From positions 443,410 through 507,409 of the forward strand of contig NZ_BAABCP010000002.1 in assembly GCF_039539005.1 (NCBI RefSeq): a stretch of DNA of 64,000 nt, read 5' to 3'. A program made the position numbers and the translations under genes. Below are positions 49,191 through 63,924 of the stretch, piece after piece. The stretch comes from Microbacterium soli. GTDB taxonomy: Bacteria > Actinomycetota > Actinomycetes > Actinomycetales > Microbacteriaceae. Under the pieces are notes generated by a model. It worked only from the letters and a program-made list of their open reading frames with translations, was not told where the DNA came from and ran no database searches. The stretch's first letter is position 1. Each line of letters starts with the position of its first letter.

Positions 49191-50216
49191 ATGACCTCCG
49201 CTTCAGCGTCCAGGATCCACTGGTTCGCCCGGCTCGAGCGCCGGTTCCACGTCTGGCGCGAGCGCCGCGCCCGCCGACGTGGGCGTTCGGCGACGATCGT
49301 GCCGTTCCCCGGCTACGGCGGATCCGGCTGGGTGCGCGTGGTGGGGCGGGTGCTCATCGTCCCGCCTCCGCCGAGACGGGATCGGGGAGAGGGCACGGGC
49401 GTCCGCGGCTGGCGGGCGTTCGTCGGCATACCGGTCGGCTTCGCGGCCGTCCAGGTCCACCTGGCCGGTCGCACCCACGACGTGGTCGCCGACCGCGGCG
49501 GGGTGATCGACACCGTCATCCGCGCCGATCTCGCGCCCGGCTGGCAGCGCTTCACGATGTCGGTCGAAGGGCGCGACCCCGTGGACGCCACCGTGTTCGT
49601 CGTCTCCGACGACGCCCGGTTCGGGGTGGTGTGCGATGTGGACGACACCATCATGGTCACGGCGCTCCCCCGCCCGTTCATCGCCGCGTGGAACTCCTTC
49701 GTCCTTGACGAGCACGCCCGCACCCCCGTACCGGGGATGGCGGTGCTTCTCGAGCAGCTGCGCCGCGAGCATCCGGGGTCGCCGGTCGTCTATCTGTCCA
49801 CGGGCGCGTGGAACGTCGCCCCCACCCTGCGCCGGTTCCTGAACCGGCATCTGTTCCCTCCGGGTGCCATGCTGCTCACCGACTGGGGCCCCACCCACGA
49901 CCGCTGGTTCCGCAGTGGCCGCGCGCACAAGTCCGAGAACCTGCGACGCCTCGCCGCGGAGTTCCCCGAGGTGCGGTGGCTGCTCATCGGCGACGACGGG
50001 CAGCACGACGAGGCCATCTACTCGGACTTCCTCGCGGAGCACCCGGACTCCGTCGCCGGTGTCGCCATCCGGCGCCTGCTGCCGGCGGAGGCGGTGCTGG
50101 CCGGCGGCCGGGCCACGGTGGAGCACACCGCGGACCCGGTTCCGTGGGTGAGCGCGGAGGACGGCGCCGGGCTGCGCGACCGGCTCCGTGAAGCGGGTCT
50201 CATCGACCCCCGCTGA
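49191..50216 (+). CDS. APP1-like phosphatase (DUF2183)
   Basis: A 341-residue HAD-like phosphatase resembling eukaryotic phosphatidate phosphatase APP1. The catalytic motif DxDxT is CDVDDTIM (about residue 149), followed by VVYLSTGAWNVAP and the C-terminal metal motif LIGDDGQHDEAIY. The N-terminal domain is beta-rich. It starts 13 nt after the DedA gene; a role in lipid turnover fits the neighbour but is inference. Confidence 0.88.
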   Translation: MTSASASRIHWFARLERRFHVWRERRARRRGRSATIVPFPGYGGSGWVRVVGRVLIVPPPPRRDRGEGTGVRGWRAFVGIPVGFAAVQVHLAGRTHDVVADRGGVIDTVIRADLAPGWQRFTMSVEGRDPVDATVFVVSDDARFGVVCDVDDTIMVTALPRPFIAAWNSFVLDEHARTPVPGMAVLLEQLRREHPGSPVVYLSTGAWNVAPTLRRFLNRHLFPPGAMLLTDWGPTHDRWFRSGRAHKSENLRRLAAEFPEVRWLLIGDDGQHDEAIYSDFLAEHPDSVAGVAIRRLLPAEAVLAGGRATVEHTADPVPWVSAEDGAGLRDRLREAGLIDPR

Positions 50217-50241
50217 CCGGCTGTCCGCGTATCCTCGTGTG

Positions 50242-51132
50242 GTGGACGTCTCCGCCATCCTCCCCCGTGACGAGTGGGTCCAGCGCGCCGCCCGGCATGA
50301 GGAGCGGGCCGACGCGCTGACCGCCGCGCACCGGTCCCGCGCGGCGCACGGTGAGAAGCACCCGGTGTGGGACTTCCTGTTCACGTACTACGCGTACCGG
50401 CCCTCCCTGCTCCGACGCTGGCATCCCGGGGCGGGCGTCGCACTCGCGGACGCGCCGGAGCGCGCGGGCTGGCGCTGGTACTCGGATGCGGCCCGCCATG
50501 GCGTCGTCGAGACGGACGCCGTGGTTCCGGATGCGGAGGCCTTCCGCACCGAGAAGCCGCAGCTGGCGTCGCTGGTCGAGCGGATGCTGCGCCGCACCGC
50601 CTCCCGGCCGGGCCAGTTCGGCTGCTTCGGCCTGCACGAGTGGGCCATGGTGTATCGGGAGCAGGAGCATCGGCATCCGATTCCCCTGCGACTGGGGCAG
50701 GCCGGGACGGATGCCGTGGTGGAGACGCACGAGCTGCGCTGCACGCACGTCGACGCGTTCCGTTTCTTCACCCCGGAGGCCGTGCCCCGCAACCGTCTCG
50801 CTCCGACCCGTGCCTCCCAGCCGGAGCTGGAGCAGCCCGGATGCCTGCATGCGGGCATGGACGTGTACAAGTGGGCGATGAAGCTCGGACCGCTGGTCCC
50901 GGGCGAACTGCTGCTGGACGCCTTCGAGCTGGCGCGCGACATCCGTCTGCTGGACATGCAGGCGGCTCCCTACGACCTGACGGAGTGGGGCGTGCGGCCG
51001 GTGCGCATCGAGACCGCGGACGGCAAAGCCGAGTACGTGCGCCGTCAGCGCGCGTTCGCCGCGCGCAGCACGGCACTGCGAAAGCGGATGCTGAACGCCT
51101 GGCTGGGCGAACCGGCATCCGCCGACTACTGA
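50242..51132 (+). CDS. Conserved actinobacterial protein (often labelled 3-methyladenine glycosylase)
   Basis: A 296-residue soluble protein with the recurrent motifs HPVWDFLFTYYAYRP and RRWHPGAGV, then FGCFGLHEWAMVY and HPIPLRLG. Homologues in actinobacteria are often annotated as 3-methyladenine DNA glycosylases, but no HhH or AlkA-type motif is evident here and the activity is unproven. GTG at 50242 has a TATCCT box 6 nt upstream, consistent with leaderless translation. Convergent with the GH3 gene, overlapping by 7 bp. Confidence 0.75.
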   Translation: MDVSAILPRDEWVQRAARHEERADALTAAHRSRAAHGEKHPVWDFLFTYYAYRPSLLRRWHPGAGVALADAPERAGWRWYSDAARHGVVETDAVVPDAEAFRTEKPQLASLVERMLRRTASRPGQFGCFGLHEWAMVYREQEHRHPIPLRLGQAGTDAVVETHELRCTHVDAFRFFTPEAVPRNRLAPTRASQPELEQPGCLHAGMDVYKWAMKLGPLVPGELLLDAFELARDIRLLDMQAAPYDLTEWGVRPVRIETADGKAEYVRRQRAFAARSTALRKRMLNAWLGEPASADY

Positions 51133-52314: not shown

Positions 52315-53403
52315 CTACGCCACCGTCCCGACCGGTACGGCGAAGTCCCGCTCGGCGAGGGCGGCGAGGCTGCGCTGCACGCCCTTCGCGGCGGTGCGGC
52401 CGGCACGGTTGGCCCCGATGGTGCTCGCCGAGGGACCATAGCCGACGAGCTGGATGCGCGGGTCGGCCACGGCCGTGGTGCCGCGACCGTCGCGGTCCAA
52501 CCGGATGCCGCCGTGCTCGCTGCGCAGATGCAGCGGCGCGAGATGCGTGATCGCCGGGCGGAACCCGGTGGCCCAGAGGATGACGTCGACGGCCTCGAAT
52601 CCGCCGTCCGCCCAGCGCACGCCGTCGGGTTCGATACGGGCGAACATCGGCCGGCGGTCGGCGTAGGCGCCCAGTCGTTCCGCCTCGCGCTCCTGCGGGC
52701 GCAGCAGGAGCCCGGTGACGCTGACCACGCTCAAGGGCGGGAGTCCCTGCGCCACGCGCTTCTCGACCAGCGCGACGGCGGCAGCCCCGACCTTCGGGGT
52801 GAACTCGTCCGTGCGCCACACCGGCGGCCTGCGCGTGGCCCAGAGCGTGTCGGTGACGGGGGCGAGCGCACCGAGGAACTGCACGGCCGATGCACCGCCG
52901 CCGACCACCATCACCCGCCTGCCGCGGAAATGCTCGGGTCCCGGATAGTCCACGGTGTGCAGCTGCTCGCCGAGGAACGTCTCCATACCGGGATAGTGGG
53001 GCAGGAAGGGCCGCGTCCAGGTCCCCGTCGCGTTCACGAGCGTGCGCGTACGCCACACGCCGGCATCCGTCCGCGCGATGAGGATTCCCTGCTCGTCGGC
53101 GACCTCGCGCACGGTGACGGGCCGGATGACGGGCAGATCGTGGGCCCGCTCGTAGGCGGCGAACGTCGCGGGCACGACCCTGTTGGCACGCTCCTGCGTG
53201 CGAGCGGGCGGGGTGTCGCCGGGCAGCCCGGCGACACCGTGCACGTCGACCATCGTCAGGGCGTCCCAGCGGTGCTGCCACGCACCGCCCGGCTTCTCGT
53301 TCGCATCCAGGACGACATGGTCGATGCCGAGCCGGCGCAGATGATACGAGGCCGACAGGCCCGCCTGCCCCGCCCCGATCACGACGCTCTCGAGAATGCT
53401 CAC
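52315..53403 (-). CDS. FAD-dependent NAD(P)-binding monooxygenase-like oxidoreductase
   Basis: A 362-residue flavoprotein with two Rossmann motifs, VVIGAGQAGLSA at the N-terminus (FAD) and VMVVGGGASAVQF (about residue 166, NADPH), in the pattern of flavin-containing monooxygenases and thioredoxin-reductase-like enzymes. ILWATGFRP is the typical ATG-type signature. Substrate unknown. It starts 40 bp before the divergent antiporter promoter. Confidence 0.85.
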   Translation of the reverse strand: MSILESVVIGAGQAGLSASYHLRRLGIDHVVLDANEKPGGAWQHRWDALTMVDVHGVAGLPGDTPPARTQERANRVVPATFAAYERAHDLPVIRPVTVREVADEQGILIARTDAGVWRTRTLVNATGTWTRPFLPHYPGMETFLGEQLHTVDYPGPEHFRGRRVMVVGGGASAVQFLGALAPVTDTLWATRRPPVWRTDEFTPKVGAAAVALVEKRVAQGLPPLSVVSVTGLLLRPQEREAERLGAYADRRPMFARIEPDGVRWADGGFEAVDVILWATGFRPAITHLAPLHLRSEHGGIRLDRDGRGTTAVADPRIQLVGYGPSASTIGANRAGRTAAKGVQRSLAALAERDFAVPVGTVA

Positions 53404-53443: not shown

Positions 53444-53449
53444 TACACT
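53444..53449 (+). promoter_or_regulatory. Promoter -10 box for the riboswitch-antiporter transcript
   Basis: TACACT with an extended TGC upstream would start transcription near 53456, about 10 nt before the first riboswitch hairpin and about 70 nt before the coding start. No clear -35 box. Confidence 0.5.
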
Positions 53450-53462
53450 CACCTGCAGGAGA

Positions 53463-53513
53463 CCGACGGGACGACCCGACGGCGACGTCACAGGCGGGGA
53501 CGACCCCGCGGAA
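53463..53513 (+). ncRNA. Probable guanidine-II (mini-ykkC) riboswitch
   Basis: Two short hairpins share an identical ACGA tetraloop: CGGG-ACGA-CCCG at 53467-53478 and GCGGGG-ACGA-CCCCGC at 53494-53509, separated by 15 nt. Two stems capped by ACGR loops define the mini-ykkC/guanidine-II class. GGA of the likely ribosome-binding site (53510-53512) directly abuts the second stem and the coding start is at 53525, so control would be translational. It precedes a cation antiporter-like gene, suggesting a guanidinium-related role. Confidence 0.72.
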
Positions 53514-53524
53514 TCGGTTTCGTC

Positions 53525-54679
53525 ATGCGCATCCCCGCCCCGCTCCGCGCGACTCTCACGCCCACGGCGGTCCTCCGGCTGGTGCTCGGCTGGGGGTCGG
53601 TCCTCCTGCTGAGCGCGTTCGGCCCGTCGTCCCCGGCCGGACTCCCCACCCCGGTGCTGTGGCTGCTGCTGGCCGGTGTCGTCGTGGTCATCACGATCAG
53701 CTCCTTCGGCGTCGTCACCGAGGCCGAGCATCTCGCGCATCGTCTCGGCGACCCCTACGGCACGCTCGTGCTCACCCTGTCGATCGCGGGAATCGAGGTC
53801 ATCCTCATCTCCGCGGTCATGCTCGGTCCCGGCGAGCACACGACCATCGCGCGGGACTCCGTGATGGCCGTGTCGATGATCATCCTGAACCTCGTGGTCG
53901 GTGTCGCCCTGCTGGTGGCCGCGCACAGGCGCCGCGACCTGCGGGTGAACAGCACGGGATTCACCCAGTACCTGGGGATGCTGATCGTCCTGCTGTCGGC
54001 GGTCTTCGCGCTTCCCGCCCTGATCGGCGAGGACGGGTCCTACACGCCCGCACAGGCCATCCCCCTCATCCTGCTGACACTCGGACTGTACGCGTTCTTC
54101 CTGGCCCGCCAGATGGGTGTTCAGCGGACGGACTTCCAGGAGCTGCCTGACATCGCATCCACCCGCACGCCGTCCTCCACATCCGATGAGGTCCGACCGC
54201 CCATCGCCGCTGTGCTCCGGCAGCACCGGGCGGAGCTGATCACCCGCACCGTCATGCTGATCGTCATGGTGCTGCCCGTCGTCCTGCTCTCCCATGAGAT
54301 GGCCGCACTCCTGGATGACGGCCTGGAGCGTCTGGGCGCACCCGTCGCGCTGTCGGGCGTCCTCATCGCCATGATCGTGTTCCTCCCCGAGACCATCACG
54401 ACCATCCGAGCGGCGGTGGCCGGGGAGATGCAGCGGGTGAGCAACCTGTGCCATGGCGCCCTCGTCTCCACGGCCGGGATCACCATCCCCGCCGTGCTGA
54501 CGATCGGTCTGCTCACCGGTCAGACGGTGCTGCTGGCCGAGACGCCGACGAACCTGCTGCTGCTCGGTGCCACCCTGCTGCTGACTCTCGCGACGTTCGC
54601 CGGGCGCCGGGCCACCGCCGTGCACGGTGCGACCCACCTGTTCATGTTCGTGCTGTACGGGCTCAGCGTGTTCTCCTGA
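53525..54679 (+). CDS. Calcium/cation:proton antiporter-like membrane protein (ChaA/CaCA family)
   Basis: A 384-residue protein with about eleven hydrophobic helices in two repeats. The exchanger alpha-repeats are recognisable from GVVTEAEHLAHRLGDPYG...SIAGIEVILIS and IAMIVFLPETITTIRAA, with conserved acidic residues for cation coordination. A charged loop about residues 205-240 separates the halves. It lies under a candidate guanidine riboswitch, so guanidinium export is possible, but the family normally moves calcium or sodium. The frame is open upstream to 53396, which would swallow the hairpins; ATG at 53525 is preferred. Confidence 0.85.
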   Translation: MRIPAPLRATLTPTAVLRLVLGWGSVLLLSAFGPSSPAGLPTPVLWLLLAGVVVVITISSFGVVTEAEHLAHRLGDPYGTLVLTLSIAGIEVILISAVMLGPGEHTTIARDSVMAVSMIILNLVVGVALLVAAHRRRDLRVNSTGFTQYLGMLIVLLSAVFALPALIGEDGSYTPAQAIPLILLTLGLYAFFLARQMGVQRTDFQELPDIASTRTPSSTSDEVRPPIAAVLRQHRAELITRTVMLIVMVLPVVLLSHEMAALLDDGLERLGAPVALSGVLIAMIVFLPETITTIRAAVAGEMQRVSNLCHGALVSTAGITIPAVLTIGLLTGQTVLLAETPTNLLLLGATLLLTLATFAGRRATAVHGATHLFMFVLYGLSVFS

Positions 54680-56896: not shown

Positions 56897-58705
56897 TCAC
56901 CCGAGCGATTGGCGAACGCTCCGCGCGTCGTTGTATGCTTTACAGGTTGCCGGGGCTCCGGTCCCGCAACGCGATGGGCCTGTGGCGCAGCTGGTAGCGC
57001 ACCTGCATGGCATGCAGGGGGTCAGGGGTTCGAGTCCCCTCAGGTCCACCCAAAGTGTCTTACGGGAACACGCGACATCGAAAGATGTGGTGTGTTCCCG
57101 TAAGGGTTCCTCTCCCTCGTCGCTGGGGGTCTTGCTCTCGCGGATGATGGTGGCGAACGGCTCGGCCAGGCGCGGACGTAGTTGCTCGTCATCGGTGATG
57201 TCGAGGCGGGTGTAGAACGCCTGGTTCGCCAGCCGCCGGTCGGCATCACCTGAACGAGCGTAGGCACGGTGCGCGTCGGTGAGCAGCCGCAGCGAGTCGT
57301 GCAGGAACGCGCGTCCGCCGGTGTGGTGCTCATCGTGCTCGGCAAGGCGCTGGTTCACGTCGGACAGGCCCGCCCGGATGCGGTCTTGATGCCGCTTCAA
57401 GGTCGGCAGGTCAATCGCGTCGGCGAAGTGCGCGGCCAGCAGCTTGTCGCTCTCCGACTCCAACTTGGCCCGGTTCGCCATGAGGTCGGCGATCTCCTGG
57501 TCGTGGCCCGCCATGCGCTTGTCGAACGCCGCGTCCACCCGCTTGGCGAGGTCGCGGTAGGTGTCGTCGCTGATCGTGATGGAGGCGTAGGAGTCCGCGA
57601 CGAGACGTTCCGCGACCGCGACCGGAACCGCCCGCCTCGTGCAGCTCGTCTTCTTGGCGGCGCGGCCGGAGCAGACGAAGTAGGCGTAGGTGGTGCCGCG
57701 CGGGTTGGTGGCGAAGTCGAGGAGCATCCGCGACCCGCAGGTGCCGCAGTACAACAGGCCTTTGAGGTGATGGGCGTGCTGCACATGCCGGGTCTGCTTC
57801 GCGGTCCGCGCTTTCAGTAGCGACTGCACCTGATCGAACAGCGCCGCTTCCACGATGGGCTCGTGCGCACCGGGATACAGGGCGCCCTTGTACCGGATCA
57901 GCCCGGCGTAGTACGGGTTCGTCAGCAGCTTGTAGAGCGTGTTCTTCCCCAGCGGCTTGCTCGGGCGCTTCGGCGTCGGCACCGTGACCAAGCCGCGTGC
58001 GGTGAGGTCGCGCAGCAGCCCGGTCACCGAGGTCTCACCCTCGGCATAATGCTCGAACGCCCACCGGATCAGCGGCGCACGCTCGGGGTCGACCTCAACG
58101 GTTCTGATTTCGCGGCCGTTCTCATCCGTCTTGCGGACGTTGAGGTAACCGATGGGGGCGCGCATCGGGGTGCCGCCCTGGGCGATCTTCTGCGATAGGC
58201 CCTTGGACACTTCGGTGGCGAGGTTGCGGCTGTAGAACTCCGCGATGGACGACATGATGCCGTGCACGAGCATCCCCGAGGGCGTCTGGTCGATCGACTC
58301 CGTAGCCGACACCAATGTCACGCCCGCAGACAGCAGTGCTTGGTGGATGGTCACGTCGTCGGCGCGGTTGCGGGCGAGCCGGTCGAGCTTGTGCACGATG
58401 CAGAACTGCACCCGAGACGCAGCGATGAACGCCAGCATCTCTTTCAGGCCGTCACGATCCGCCGAGCGTGCCGACTCGCCTGCGTCCACGAACTCGTGCA
58501 CGATCCGCGCCCCGAGTTCGTCGGCCTTGCGCTGGTTGGCCTCACGCTGGGCGGGGATCGAGAACCCCTCGTCAGTGCCGCCACGCTCGGCCTGCTCGCG
58601 CGTGGAGACACGTAGATAGGACACGGCCAGCAGCACCGGCTTGTCGCCTGTCCAGCCGTCGGTGACGCCTGCCGGGGCGAGGGCGGGAGCGGTGATGGTG
58701 CTCAT
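56897..58705 (-). CDS. Large serine recombinase; C-terminus reads antisense through tRNA-Ala
   Basis: A 602-residue integrase of the large serine family. The N-terminal catalytic domain has the nucleophile in YLRVSTREQ and the KLDRLARN motif; a recombinase domain follows, a zinc-ribbon (LYCGTCGSRMLLDFA, FVCSGRAAKKTSC) and a coiled-coil. ATG at 58705 has AAGGAG upstream. Residues from about 553 on (VDLRGLEPLTPC and beyond) are encoded by the antisense of the tRNA and chromosomal flank, not by the element, so the native C-terminus probably ended differently. The upstream small gene overlaps by 4 bp. Confidence 0.9.
   Translation of the reverse strand: MSTITAPALAPAGVTDGWTGDKPVLLAVSYLRVSTREQAERGGTDEGFSIPAQREANQRKADELGARIVHEFVDAGESARSADRDGLKEMLAFIAASRVQFCIVHKLDRLARNRADDVTIHQALLSAGVTLVSATESIDQTPSGMLVHGIMSSIAEFYSRNLATEVSKGLSQKIAQGGTPMRAPIGYLNVRKTDENGREIRTVEVDPERAPLIRWAFEHYAEGETSVTGLLRDLTARGLVTVPTPKRPSKPLGKNTLYKLLTNPYYAGLIRYKGALYPGAHEPIVEAALFDQVQSLLKARTAKQTRHVQHAHHLKGLLYCGTCGSRMLLDFATNPRGTTYAYFVCSGRAAKKTSCTRRAVPVAVAERLVADSYASITISDDTYRDLAKRVDAAFDKRMAGHDQEIADLMANRAKLESESDKLLAAHFADAIDLPTLKRHQDRIRAGLSDVNQRLAEHDEHHTGGRAFLHDSLRLLTDAHRAYARSGDADRRLANQAFYTRLDITDDEQLRPRLAEPFATIIRESKTPSDEGEEPLREHTTSFDVACSRKTLWVDLRGLEPLTPCMPCRCATSCATGPSRCGTGAPATCKAYNDARSVRQSLG
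56909..56939 (+). promoter_or_regulatory. Promoter of tRNA-Ala
   Basis: TTGGCG (56909-56914) and TATGCT (56934-56939) separated by 19 bp lie 37 bp before the tRNA gene. Confidence 0.6.
56976..57048 (+). tRNA. tRNA-Ala (GGC anticodon)
   Basis: A complete 73-nt cloverleaf: acceptor GGGCCTG/CAGGTCC, D-arm GCGC/GCGC, anticodon arm CCTGC-ATGGCAT-GCAGG with anticodon GGC, and T-arm AGGGG-TTCGAGT-CCCCT; discriminator A, CCA not fully encoded (ACC at the end). It marks the integration site of the element on its right. Confidence 0.93.
57059..57104. repeat. Long near-perfect hairpin abutting the tRNA, candidate attachment/termination element
   Basis: CTTACGGGAACAC (57059-57071) pairs perfectly with GTGTTCCCGTAAG (57092-57104); inside, a GCG/GGT internal loop, a 5-bp ACATC/GATGT stem and a GAAA tetraloop. 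It begins 10 nt after the tRNA. It lies within the recombinase coding frame and may be part of the att site or end transcripts. No U-run follows in either direction. Confidence 0.75.
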
Positions 58706-60393: not shown

Positions 60394-63300
60394 ATGGTGA
60401 GTGGGGCAGACGCAAGGGTGGTGGTCGAGATGCAGGGCGGCGTGATCCCGTTCCGGGGCACCGGAGCCGACGCGCTGCGCTACGTCGAGGCCGACTGTTC
60501 CCGCGCTGACGACTACTACCTGGGCGCGGAAGCGACCGTCGCGCAGTTCGCGGCACTCGACGGATCGGGCGAGGTGACCGCTGAGCTGGCGCTTGATCCT
60601 GTGGGGTATGCGAGGTGGGTGGACTGGGAGAACCCGCTCACGGGCGAGTCGATGGGCAAACCGCGCCGGGCGGGGTCGGATCGGCGAGGCTCGCCCCGGT
60701 TCATGGAGATGGTCATCAACACGCCCAAGAGCTTGTCGATCGCCGCCGCCCTGCACCCCGAGGTCTCGGAGGTGCTGGATGCGGCGCAACAGGATGCCCT
60801 CAGCGAGATTCGGCGCTGGCTCGCCCAGCACTCCGTGACTCGTGTCGGGCCGTTGGGGGCGCAGGAGGTCGTACCCATCGAGAGCATGCAGGTCGTGGGC
60901 ATCACGCACCGCACGTCGCGGGCGGGTGATCCGCACCGGCATATTCATATGCAGATCGGCATGAGAGTGTGGGCGGCGGGCAAGTGGCGGGGCTTGAACG
61001 GCGCTGCGCTGTTCAAGCAGCAGGGCGCGATCCGCGCCCTCGGCACCGCCGTGATCGCCGCCCACCCCGACCTCGCCGCCGTGCTCGACCGGCACGGCCT
61101 GACCCTCGACCCCGCCACCGGCGAAGTCGCCGAGTTGGAGCCGTTCAACGCGCTCATGTCGAAGCGGGGCGAGCAGGTGCGCAAGAATCTCGAACGCTTC
61201 GAATCCGAATGGGATCAAGCGCACCCCGGCGAGATGATCGGGCCGGTCGTCGCCTCCCGCCTGCGCGCCGAGGCGTGGGCGTATGAGCGACCCGCGAAGA
61301 AGCCCACCACCCTGCGGGAGGAAGCCGCATGGGTGACCGAGCTGCGCGAAGCCGGATACGACCCCGAACGGGTCGAACGCAAGACTGCGCAACCCCCAGT
61401 GCTGCTTGAAGACCTCAGCATGCAACAGGTCGCGTCGCGGGCGCTGGATCGGTGCGCCGCTAGTGCGTCGGCATGGACGCCGCACACTGTGGAGGAACAT
61501 GTCACCCGGATCACGACCGAGGCAGGCGTGCAGGCCACACCGCAGGAGTTGCGCGAGTTCGTGAGCCTCGCAACCGATCTTGCGGTATCGGATTGCTTCT
61601 CCATCCTGCCGCCTGGCGCAGCTGCACCGGAGTACGTCGCCCACCTGACCAGCGTCGGCGTGGTCGCCGCTGAGACCGCGCTGCGCGACCAGCTCACCGC
61701 CGCAACCCTGCGCCGGGAGCCGAAACCAGCGGACGTGACCGAGGCCGCACACACCGCCGGGCTCGATGAGGGGCAGACGGTCGCCGCCGCTGCGGTCGCC
61801 TCGAACGATCCGCTGGTGATCGTGGAGGGTGCAGCCGGGGCCGGGAAGACCACGATGCTCGGCGGCGCCATCGAGGTCGCCGCCGAGCAGGGCAGGGCGT
61901 CGCGGGTGGTTGCGCCGACGCTGCGGGCGGCGCAGGTCGCGCACGACGAACTCGGCGTACCCGCCACCAGTGTTGCGGCGCTGGTGTATGCGCATGGGTG
62001 GCGGTGGAACGCCGACGGCGTATGGACACGCCTCACGCGGGGCGATACCGACCCTGAGACCGGGCGCGCATTCACCGGCCCACCGCGAGAAACGGTGCTG
62101 TCGCGGGGTGAGCGGGTGATCGTCGACGAGGCCGGGATGCTCGACCAAGACACCGCCCACGCCCTCCTCACCATCACTGCCGAAGCAAACGCGACGGTTG
62201 CGCTCGTCGGCGACCGCGCCCAACTCCCCGCCGTCGGGCGCGGCGGTGTGCTCGACATTGCCGCACAGATCAGGGGCCGTACCTACGATATGAGCGAGCT
62301 GCATCGCTTCACCGATGCCCAGTACGCGGCGCTCACGCTGGCGATGCGAGACCGCGAGAACCCCGGCGAGGTGTTCGACCGGCTCGCCGCTATGAAGCTC
62401 GTGACGTTGCATGCGGACGACGAGCAGGCCCGCGACCACATCACCGTCAGCGCCCGCGCCCGCGCCCGCGCCCGCGACGGCGACGGCGAGGCGATCACGG
62501 TGTCGACCAATGACGAGGCGGCGGCGTTGAATGAGCGCATCCGCGCCGGACGGATCGAGCGTGGCGAGGTCGACGACACGGTGACGGAGACCGGCAGCGA
62601 CGGGCTGAGCATCGGGGCCGGTGACCTGATCCAGACCCGCAAGAACAACAGTGATCTTGGGGTGGCGAACCGGCAGCAGTGGATCGTGCAGCACGTCGAG
62701 AGCGACGGCACGGTCTACGCGCGTGAGGTCGGCAGCGGGCGCAAGAGCCCGCGCACCGTTGCCCTGCCTGCCGAGTATTTGGGTGAGCATGCGCACCTGT
62801 CCTACGCCGCCACCGCCTACGGCGTCCAAGGCGCCACCGTCGATGCCTCGCACACGGTGCTGTCGGAGGCGACGAGCGCGGCGGGCGTCTACGTCGGCAT
62901 GACCCGAGGCCGCAACACGAACCGGCTCCACGTCGTCGCGGAAGACCTCGCGGATGCGCGGGCGCAGTTCATCGACGCGATGGAACGCGACCCCGCAGAC
63001 CGGGGCCTCGACCACGCCACCCACGCCGCACAAGAAGCCGTGCGCGGCCTCGTCAACGACGGCCCCGTGCGGCTCGTCACCGAAGAACTCGCCCGCCTCG
63101 ACCACGAAGCCGAACGCGCACAACGGACGGCGGCACGATGGGAGCAGATCGCCGCCAGGCTCGACGCCCAACGCTCCACCCACCGCGCCGAGGACGACGA
63201 GAGTGCTGCTGTACTCCGCAAGGCCGAAGAAGTCGCCGAGCAGGTGCGCGCCGAGGCCGCCAGGCCGCTCACCGTCCAAGCCGAGCACGACGGGGCCGCC

Positions 63301-63924
63301 TACCTCGCCGCCGTGGAGAACGAGGCCGCTACCAGCGCCCGCCTCGCCACCGTGGGCAGGTTCGGCAGGCGCAAAGCCCGTACTGAGCACCGCGCCGCGA
63401 CCGAACACACGCAGGAGCTGCGTGGACAGGTCAGCAGCGAATGGGGCACCACCCCGACCTACGCCGATTGTCTCCCGGCATGGGCGAGCAGGGCCGCCGA
63501 GAAGCGTGCAGAGACCGATCCTCGCGTGGCCGAGGCTGTGCAGACCGTCGCCGCCGCGACTGCCAACCGTGAGGCGATGCGGGAACGCCATGAGCAGGAG
63601 CGTCTGGCGTTGCTGGTCAGCGAGTACGGGCCACAGCAGGCCCGCCGCGACCAGCTCGGCATTCGCACCACCAGCCCCCACCGCAAGGCTCGCGACACCA
63701 GAAACCGGGGCGCCATGACTCGGGCCGAAGCCGACCAACTCCGTAGCCTGCCCGTGAACGAAGCCGCCGAACGCATCGAAGCCAAGCGCGCCGAGCAGGA
63801 GCAAGCGCGGCAGCGAGTCGCAGAGCGGGCACAGCGGCTTCCCGACCCATTCGCGCACGACACCCACCGCAGCGGGACTGTCTTATTTTCGGTGTTTCTG
63901 GGTCGGCCTGACCGAGAGGAATAG
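60394..63924 (+). CDS. MobF-family relaxase-helicase (TraA-like)
   Basis: A 1176-residue conjugation initiator. The N-terminal TrwC-type relaxase domain has MVINTPKSLSI and the metal-binding three-histidine motif DPHRHIHMQIG (about residue 185); nucleophilic Tyr candidates are near 30-42 (LRYVEAD, DDYYLG). The RecD-like helicase has Walker A GAAGAGKTTM, DEAGML, GDRAQLPA and a C-terminal YAATAYGVQGAT region. A short ARARARAR tract sits between helicase motifs, and a coiled-coil tail follows. A TACGCT box lies 2 nt before ATG and 5 nt before an in-frame GTG at 60397, which may be the real start. Confidence 0.92.
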   Translation: MVSGADARVVVEMQGGVIPFRGTGADALRYVEADCSRADDYYLGAEATVAQFAALDGSGEVTAELALDPVGYARWVDWENPLTGESMGKPRRAGSDRRGSPRFMEMVINTPKSLSIAAALHPEVSEVLDAAQQDALSEIRRWLAQHSVTRVGPLGAQEVVPIESMQVVGITHRTSRAGDPHRHIHMQIGMRVWAAGKWRGLNGAALFKQQGAIRALGTAVIAAHPDLAAVLDRHGLTLDPATGEVAELEPFNALMSKRGEQVRKNLERFESEWDQAHPGEMIGPVVASRLRAEAWAYERPAKKPTTLREEAAWVTELREAGYDPERVERKTAQPPVLLEDLSMQQVASRALDRCAASASAWTPHTVEEHVTRITTEAGVQATPQELREFVSLATDLAVSDCFSILPPGAAAPEYVAHLTSVGVVAAETALRDQLTAATLRREPKPADVTEAAHTAGLDEGQTVAAAAVASNDPLVIVEGAAGAGKTTMLGGAIEVAAEQGRASRVVAPTLRAAQVAHDELGVPATSVAALVYAHGWRWNADGVWTRLTRGDTDPETGRAFTGPPRETVLSRGERVIVDEAGMLDQDTAHALLTITAEANATVALVGDRAQLPAVGRGGVLDIAAQIRGRTYDMSELHRFTDAQYAALTLAMRDRENPGEVFDRLAAMKLVTLHADDEQARDHITVSARARARARDGDGEAITVSTNDEAAALNERIRAGRIERGEVDDTVTETGSDGLSIGAGDLIQTRKNNSDLGVANRQQWIVQHVESDGTVYAREVGSGRKSPRTVALPAEYLGEHAHLSYAATAYGVQGATVDASHTVLSEATSAAGVYVGMTRGRNTNRLHVVAEDLADARAQFIDAMERDPADRGLDHATHAAQEAVRGLVNDGPVRLVTEELARLDHEAERAQRTAARWEQIAARLDAQRSTHRAEDDESAAVLRKAEEVAEQVRAEAARPLTVQAEHDGAAYLAAVENEAATSARLATVGRFGRRKARTEHRAATEHTQELRGQVSSEWGTTPTYADCLPAWASRAAEKRAETDPRVAEAVQTVAAATANREAMRERHEQERLALLVSEYGPQQARRDQLGIRTTSPHRKARDTRNRGAMTRAEADQLRSLPVNEAAERIEAKRAEQEQARQRVAERAQRLPDPFAHDTHRSGTVLFSVFLGRPDREE

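Follow-up and report, generated by a model that had tools for sequence, protein, structure and literature searches.

A probable guanidine-II riboswitch in the leader of an antiporter-like gene

Why should a gene of a kind annotated as encoding a calcium:proton antiporter lie behind an RNA of a guanidine-sensing class? Guanidine-II (mini-ykkC, RF01068) riboswitches mainly control SMR-family exporters and urea/guanidine-utilisation genes, according to the available portions of PMC12186494, PMC2864571 and PMC3766115. In the window (the whole 64,000-nucleotide stretch of Microbacterium soli DNA analyzed here, to which positions refer unless a locus is named), the initial annotation had placed two hairpins with ACGA loops between a TACACT box and the start codon of an exchanger-like gene, and had taken them for a probable member of this class. 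Both hairpins are present in the sequence, with 15 nt between the intervals noted for them, and the class assignment agrees with the Rfam covariance model, which matches RF01068 to bp 53463-53507 (+) with 34.9 bits, above the curated cut-off of 32. This 45-nt match is 2.9 bits above the cut-off, lies 17 nt upstream of the CaCA/ChaA-like gene (E-value: 0.0028 when the whole window was searched against 4227 families, 8.9e-6 for a 201-base stretch) and is the sole guanidine-II match in the 3.1-Mb M. soli genome. No match to guanidine-I or guanidine-III was found in this genome at an E-value of 0.001.

All elements of the leader are on the + strand. A predicted -10 box, TACACT (53444-53449), is identified from its sequence and from the conserved position of TANNNT in homologous loci. 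It is followed by the P1 hairpin (53463-53482), which has its ACGA loop at 53471-53474 and one A-A mismatch in the stem; the first hairpin as originally drawn (53467-53478) is the inner 12 nt of P1. A linker (53483-53493) joins P1 to the P2 hairpin (53494-53509), whose ACGA loop is at 53500-53503 and which extends beyond the end of the Rfam match at 53507. P2 adjoins a weak Shine-Dalgarno-like stretch, GGAATCGG (53510-53517), and the GGA that had been described as touching the second stem (53510-53512) directly adjoins it. AAGGAG is found near the Shine-Dalgarno position in a number of relatives, the M. soli version being weak. Immediately 5' of the ATG is TTTCGTC (53518-53524), whose TCGTC is predicted to base-pair with the P2 loop region when the leader folds freely, a pairing that is possibly the off-state of the M. 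soli leader. The gene itself (53525-54679) encodes a CaCA/ChaA-like cation:proton antiporter of 384 aa, our candidate guanidinium exporter. A start at 53396, as in the mechanically called open reading frame, was rejected because that frame only reads through the RNA; the start codon is the ATG at 53525.

The divergent neighbour of this gene (52315-53403, -) encodes a flavin monooxygenase (296.9 bits with an ArsO-like profile, below the cut-off of 425). A conserved operon with the neighbours was considered and is not supported: within flanks of ~1.5 kb, the flavin monooxygenase was found at 14/134 loci and the downstream OmpA-like gene at 1/134, some of the 134 loci being the same genome counted twice. 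Elsewhere in the window, a large recombinase-like ORF (56897-58705, -; recognized by eye from its N-terminus), the 3' part of which overlaps a tRNA gene (56976-57048, +), and a relaxase/helicase-like ORF (60394-63924, by eye) suggest an integrated mobile element. The 314-aa ORF at 50188-51132 (+) had no Pfam or NCBIfam match at an E-value of 0.001.

The transporter protein

Placement of the regulated gene in the CaCA exchanger fold, as initially suggested, is borne out: the protein matches PF01699 over two stretches (68.7 bits, cut-off 24.9) and no other Pfam family, and its predicted structure has the calcium/proton-exchanger fold. Its score with the ChaA equivalog NF007895 (146.5 bits) is under the cut-off of 505, and its identity to nine ChaA-like paralogues and E. 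coli ChaA is 27-32%. The protein retains the two exchanger-repeat glutamates in the membrane, E91 and E289. Compared with 18 ChaA-like proteins, the clade to which the protein belongs also keeps R110-D111, and 55 positions are clade-specific (conserved in at least 95% of 79 clade proteins and in less than 10% of the 18 paralogues). The motif GN(A/V)E in the alpha repeats defines the CAX-type Ca2+/H+ exchangers. VCX1 has GNAVE and GNAAE, whereas the clade lacks both, with IE and PE at the corresponding positions, the E being common to the ChaA-like set. Matching proteins number 2266 at an E-value of 1e-40 or better, and the riboswitch was checked in 80 named loci and in samples from the genus and family.

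Linkage of riboswitch and transporter gene

In a genus-wide search, RF01068 was found in 50 of 198 Microbacterium genomes at an E-value of 0.001, with 39 over the cut-off. A survey of the genes that follow this RNA in Microbacteriaceae had been suggested in the initial annotation; in these 50 genomes they are mainly CaCA genes (34 genomes); 5 genomes have an SMR exporter there instead, and 11 have no gene of either kind. The 11 matches without such a target, 4 of which score over the cut-off, appear to be chance matches of the model. The open frames around them span 438-1331 codons, and since the matches before CaCA and SMR genes are likewise in open frames (250-862 codons) in this GC-rich DNA, reading frames cannot separate the chance matches.

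When the search was started from the protein (E-value: 1e-30), the CaCA transporter was found in 45 of the 198 genomes, and a guanidine-II motif lies directly upstream in 41 of these. Specifically, 34 have Rfam matches at an E-value of 0.001, four score lower with Rfam, at 25.1-28.3 bits (G071, G099, G189 and G155), and three have paired ACGR hairpins only, with no Rfam listing (G033, G133 and G118); that is, 7 of the 41 leaders are below the Rfam threshold used (E-value: 0.001). Two further genomes (G149 and G159) have guanidine-III in place of guanidine-II before the CaCA gene. Their Rfam scores of 35.6 and 34.4 bits are just below the cut-off of 36, a model of the genus Gdx leaders gives 30.3 and 27.2 bits (E-values: 6.4e-5 and 4e-4), and both leaders share core letters with guanidine-III. 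The more distant CaCA protein of G087 (43% identity) has no riboswitch upstream, and the locus of G162, at a contig end with its upstream region unreadable, is counted separately among the 45. In other Microbacteriaceae, clade members (46% identity or above) were found in 9 of the genomes searched, and 8 of the 9 have the motif, five over the cut-off and three with 29.0, 27.3 and 22.9 bits. Loss of the second ACGR loop in close relatives had been named as potential counter-evidence; it is not observed, and both loops are kept.

Beyond the family, we scanned the best 80 of 588 confirmed CaCA loci in named genomes, which represent 24 actinobacterial genera (including Nocardiopsis, Saccharopolyspora, Corynebacterium, Brevibacterium, Rothia, Arthrobacter, Streptomyces, Kocuria and Cellulomonas); some of these genomes are already in the genus and family counts. 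Two ACGR hairpins were identified upstream by rule at 74 of the 80. At L257 and L261 the rule picked the wrong hairpin pair, the correct pair nonetheless being there, while L255 and L274 have both loops and an imperfect stem (by eye). With L255 and L274 added, the two hairpins are found at 76 of 79 readable loci among the best 80 (L316, without upstream sequence, is left out). An intact motif is absent from L285 (Leifsonia sp. Root4) and L286 (Pseudonocardia parietis), which have none, and from L275 (Arthrobacter sp. U41), which has a degenerate P1; these three clade members are natural test cases for constitutive expression or altered function. The Rfam cut-off was reached by 13 of 20 named loci tried, with 7 below.

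G127 and G077 have a second guanidine-II riboswitch ~420 nt upstream of that of the CaCA gene. It precedes a 94-aa ORF (L010:1138-1422, + and L011:1138-1422, +) that, judged by eye, probably has two membrane helices. L081 has an 81-aa ORF of similar appearance (by eye) behind a guanidine-II riboswitch at 1501-1545. The 94-aa ORF has 25 homologues at an E-value of 1e-4, those with names being all hypothetical proteins and the organisms given being Microbacterium; this is possibly another guanidine-regulated family.

RNA structure and mode of control

Compensatory changes were examined in an alignment of 48 leaders anchored on the loops, with 43 distinct P1 and 40 distinct P2 sequences. The two loop-closing pairs are G-C throughout, with one G-U exception. 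P1 pairs 3-8 are changed on both sides in 5, 7, 11, 15, 14 and 3 sequences, respectively, counts that are biased towards structure as the hairpins were selected for pairing. P2 pair 3 also has changes on both sides, and standard pairing at this pair and at P1 pairs 3-8 drops once the partners are slid. The outer P2 pairs 6-7 are poorly kept (18 and 14 of 40, versus 16 and 12 when slid by -1). Shared ancestry alone was rejected as an explanation for leader conservation because the leaders diverge among relatives, yet the loops and inner pairs are retained, and because guanidine-III substitutes in G149 and G159.

A TANNNT box is found 24-42 nt 5' of the P1 loop in 58 instances at 70 loci, with 3.2 expected; in the window it is at -27. 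Its position suggests that transcription probably starts 5' of P1 and that the whole RNA would be transcribed, the opposite of a start downstream of the first hairpin, which the initial annotation had held to be incompatible with a riboswitch here. The stretch from the RNA match to the first possible start codon measures 16-21 nt at 33 of 34 genus loci, and this fixed short distance from P2 argues for control that is most likely exerted at translation. In the M. soli leader, the modelled accessibility of the Shine-Dalgarno stretch increases from 0.42 to 0.76 when P1 and P2 are imposed. Across the 48 folded leaders, imposing both hairpins raised accessibility by more than 0.1 in 6 and lowered it in 9, with no common off-state or shared switch pattern, and a general switch model based on folding alone was dropped on these counts.

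Distribution of Gdx in Microbacterium

Using as query an SMR protein encoded behind a guanidine-II riboswitch (E-value: 1e-15), a Gdx-type SMR was identified in 129 of the 198 genus genomes, with no match in M. soli at this threshold. CaCA alone is found in 43 genomes, Gdx alone in 127, neither in 26 and both in only 2 (G133 and G087), compared to ~29 expected from the totals (Fisher p = 7e-23, with genomes taken as independent). In G087, the CaCA protein that accompanies Gdx is the distant one without a riboswitch. Guanidine-III is directly upstream of 19 of 20 sampled genus Gdx genes (including those of G133 and G087, with G026 as the exception), which indicates that these SMR genes are guanidine-linked.

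Because related genomes are not independent, a species tree was built from LepA for 100 genomes, a non-random pick comprising the 40 of 45 CaCA genomes with a listed LepA position and 60 others that were also listed. On this tree, well supported branches account for at least 8 changes of the CaCA-only label, out of 12 in all. In 9 supported independent contrasts, Gdx went in the opposite direction in 6.7, in the same direction in 0.4 and showed no difference in 1.8 (averages). The contrast test gave a median p of 0.031 (range 0.016-0.125) when CaCA changes were followed and a median p of 0.07 when the traits were exchanged and Gdx changes followed. Outside Microbacterium the exclusion is weaker, a Gdx-like SMR being also present in 8 of 25 CaCA genomes tried (from the 80 named loci, with no comparison group). 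Near exclusion of CaCA and Gdx is the strongest functional evidence for the exporter reading.

At some loci, guanidine-III points away from the CaCA gene (L127:850-914, -; L125:736-800, -; L326:827-891, -; L287:866-930, -) and is followed ~180 nt downstream by a cytochrome b-like ORF (QcrB, by eye). Since Gdx found no match in G127 or G077 at an E-value of 1e-15, this outward guanidine-III may be the relic of a lost Gdx gene.

Proposed function and alternatives

We propose that the guanidine-II riboswitch in the 5' leader would sense guanidinium and, when bound, would turn on the CaCA gene, most likely at translation. The ChaA-like CaCA protein would then export guanidinium in exchange for protons, taking over the job of Gdx, which is absent from M. 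soli and from most CaCA-bearing genomes of the genus. To this reading, in which an exchanger-fold guanidinium/H+ exporter is the non-homologous stand-in for Gdx, we assign a probability of roughly 0.6 on comparative sequence evidence. Its parts differ in strength. The gene is almost certainly under guanidine control, judging from these comparisons, while guanidinium export by the transporter is probable, as it explains the swap with Gdx most simply. We lean slightly towards a broader claim, that a clade of Actinomycetota proteins annotated as calcium:proton antiporters are dedicated guanidinium/H+ exporters of the exchanger fold, an independent invention that took the place of Gdx repeatedly while the riboswitch class in front of it changed. 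Conserved linkage, the exchange of riboswitch classes and the near exclusion of Gdx all favour the initial suggestion that a new transporter family may have to be added to guanidine physiology. Against the exporter reading are the annotation and fold of the protein, which are those of Ca2+/Na+/K+:H+ antiporters, and the 26/198 genus genomes with neither gene.

One alternative is that the hairpins are chance structures in GC-rich DNA, without a regulatory role. The M. soli locus offers just one 45-nt match, which exceeds the cut-off by 2.9 bits, and matches without a CaCA or SMR gene occur in 11 of the 50 genus genomes with RF01068, 4 of them over the cut-off. Set against this, the two-hairpin rule identified 74/79 homologue upstream regions versus 3/1580 dinucleotide shuffles, 4/768 flank windows (both strands) and 0/18 ChaA-like paralogues, and by Rfam no guanidine riboswitch was found at 16 ChaA-like paralogues (E-value: 2). 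With the compensatory changes, the guanidine-III substitution and the position of the promoter box, these controls leave chance hairpins extremely improbable, and this explanation was rejected. A rapid protein tree of 100 rows puts the 18 ChaA-like proteins to one side (99*), and explaining where the riboswitch is present takes 4 changes (with L275 scored as present); the tree carries long branches, and the divergent riboswitch-bearing G476 is nearer the ChaA side.

The main rival to guanidinium export accepts the riboswitch as real and takes the protein to be a Ca2+, Na+ or K+:proton antiporter that is induced as guanidinium upsets cation balance or membrane charge. By family and fold the protein does belong with the Ca2+/H+ and Na+/K+:H+ antiporters, it retains the two cation-site glutamates, and guanidine aptamers are tied to Ca2+ genes in vertebrates in the available part of PMC12335538. 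By itself, however, an inorganic-cation antiporter leaves unexplained both the near exclusion of Gdx and the lack of the riboswitch at all ChaA-like paralogues tested, from which the clade is set apart at 55 positions, and we regard it as unlikely. More doubtful still is a transporter of wider substrates (methylguanidine, aminoguanidine or Cs+), for which guanidine would be only the inducer or one substrate among others. A vertebrate guanidine-II aptamer binds methyl and amino guanidines about as well as guanidine (PMC12335538, portion available), and Cs+ is weakly carried by Gdx itself (PMC13064478, likewise in part), but the comparative evidence indicates no particular other ligand, and the swaps with Gdx and guanidine-III favour guanidine itself.

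Should the clade export guanidinium, the CaCA fold would have evolved export independently, with an organic cation added to its substrates, and a large group of proteins now called calcium:proton antiporters (the 2266 matches above) would carry the wrong name. If its members are instead true Ca2+ or Na+/K+ antiporters, bacteria tie guanidine to inorganic cation balance, which would be an unexpected parallel to the guanidine aptamers of vertebrate Ca2+ genes (PMC12335538, as far as its available text goes).

Comparison with known systems

We found no paper that connects any gene for a CaCA, ChaA or calcium:proton antiporter protein with a guanidine riboswitch, and no bacterial CaCA target is mentioned in the available portions of PMC12186494, PMC2864571, PMC3766115, PMC13064478, PMC7266159, PMC7544219, PMC9574504, PMC7736828 and PMC12335538; the words antiporter, calcium and exchanger do not occur in the text of PMC7736828. 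The mini-ykkC gene lists of 2007, 2010 and 2017 (including Additional file 8 of PMC2864571) may already hold the bare association.

The M. soli RNA shares with the RF01068 class two ACGR-loop hairpins closed by G-C pairs, a short linker, a place in the 5' leader and a start codon soon after P2, and differs from it in its target, a CaCA transporter. A vertebrate guanidine-II aptamer is said to be selective like the bacterial ones (PMC12335538, portion available). Guanidine-III (ykkC-III, RF01763) has the same ligand and precedes 19/20 sampled Gdx genes as well as CaCA in two genomes, but its structure is unrelated and it has no match in the M. soli genome at an E-value of 0.001.

Among transporters, the ChaA/CAX branch (E. 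coli ChaA, YfkE, VCX1 and CAX1) differs in sequence, with 27-32% identity and a clade protein below the ChaA equivalog cut-off, in the GNAVE/GNAAE of VCX1 that the clade lacks and in the riboswitch, present in the clade and absent from 18 paralogues. Gdx (SugE) is likewise encoded by a guanidine-riboswitch-controlled transporter gene; its distribution in the genus is nearly complementary and the same job is proposed for both proteins. Gdx is ~105 aa in length, with four helices, and functions as a dimer (PMC12186494 and PMC13064478, available portions), and in everted vesicles the E. coli protein has a Km of 37.5 uM for guanidinium and 46 mM for Cs+ (PMC13064478, same portion). In contrast, the M. 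soli protein is 384 aa in length and has the exchanger fold, with PF01699 as its only match. In the literature covered here, SMR-family Gdx is the experimentally shown guanidine exporter; in the available part of PMC7736828, MATE and PnuC are proposed as such, owing to their guanidine-IV riboswitches. MATE and PnuC have other folds and belong with another riboswitch class. As with the CaCA clade, however, they are non-SMR families for which export was proposed from riboswitch linkage; going by that portion, non-SMR guanidine exporters have already been put forward on the same kind of evidence.
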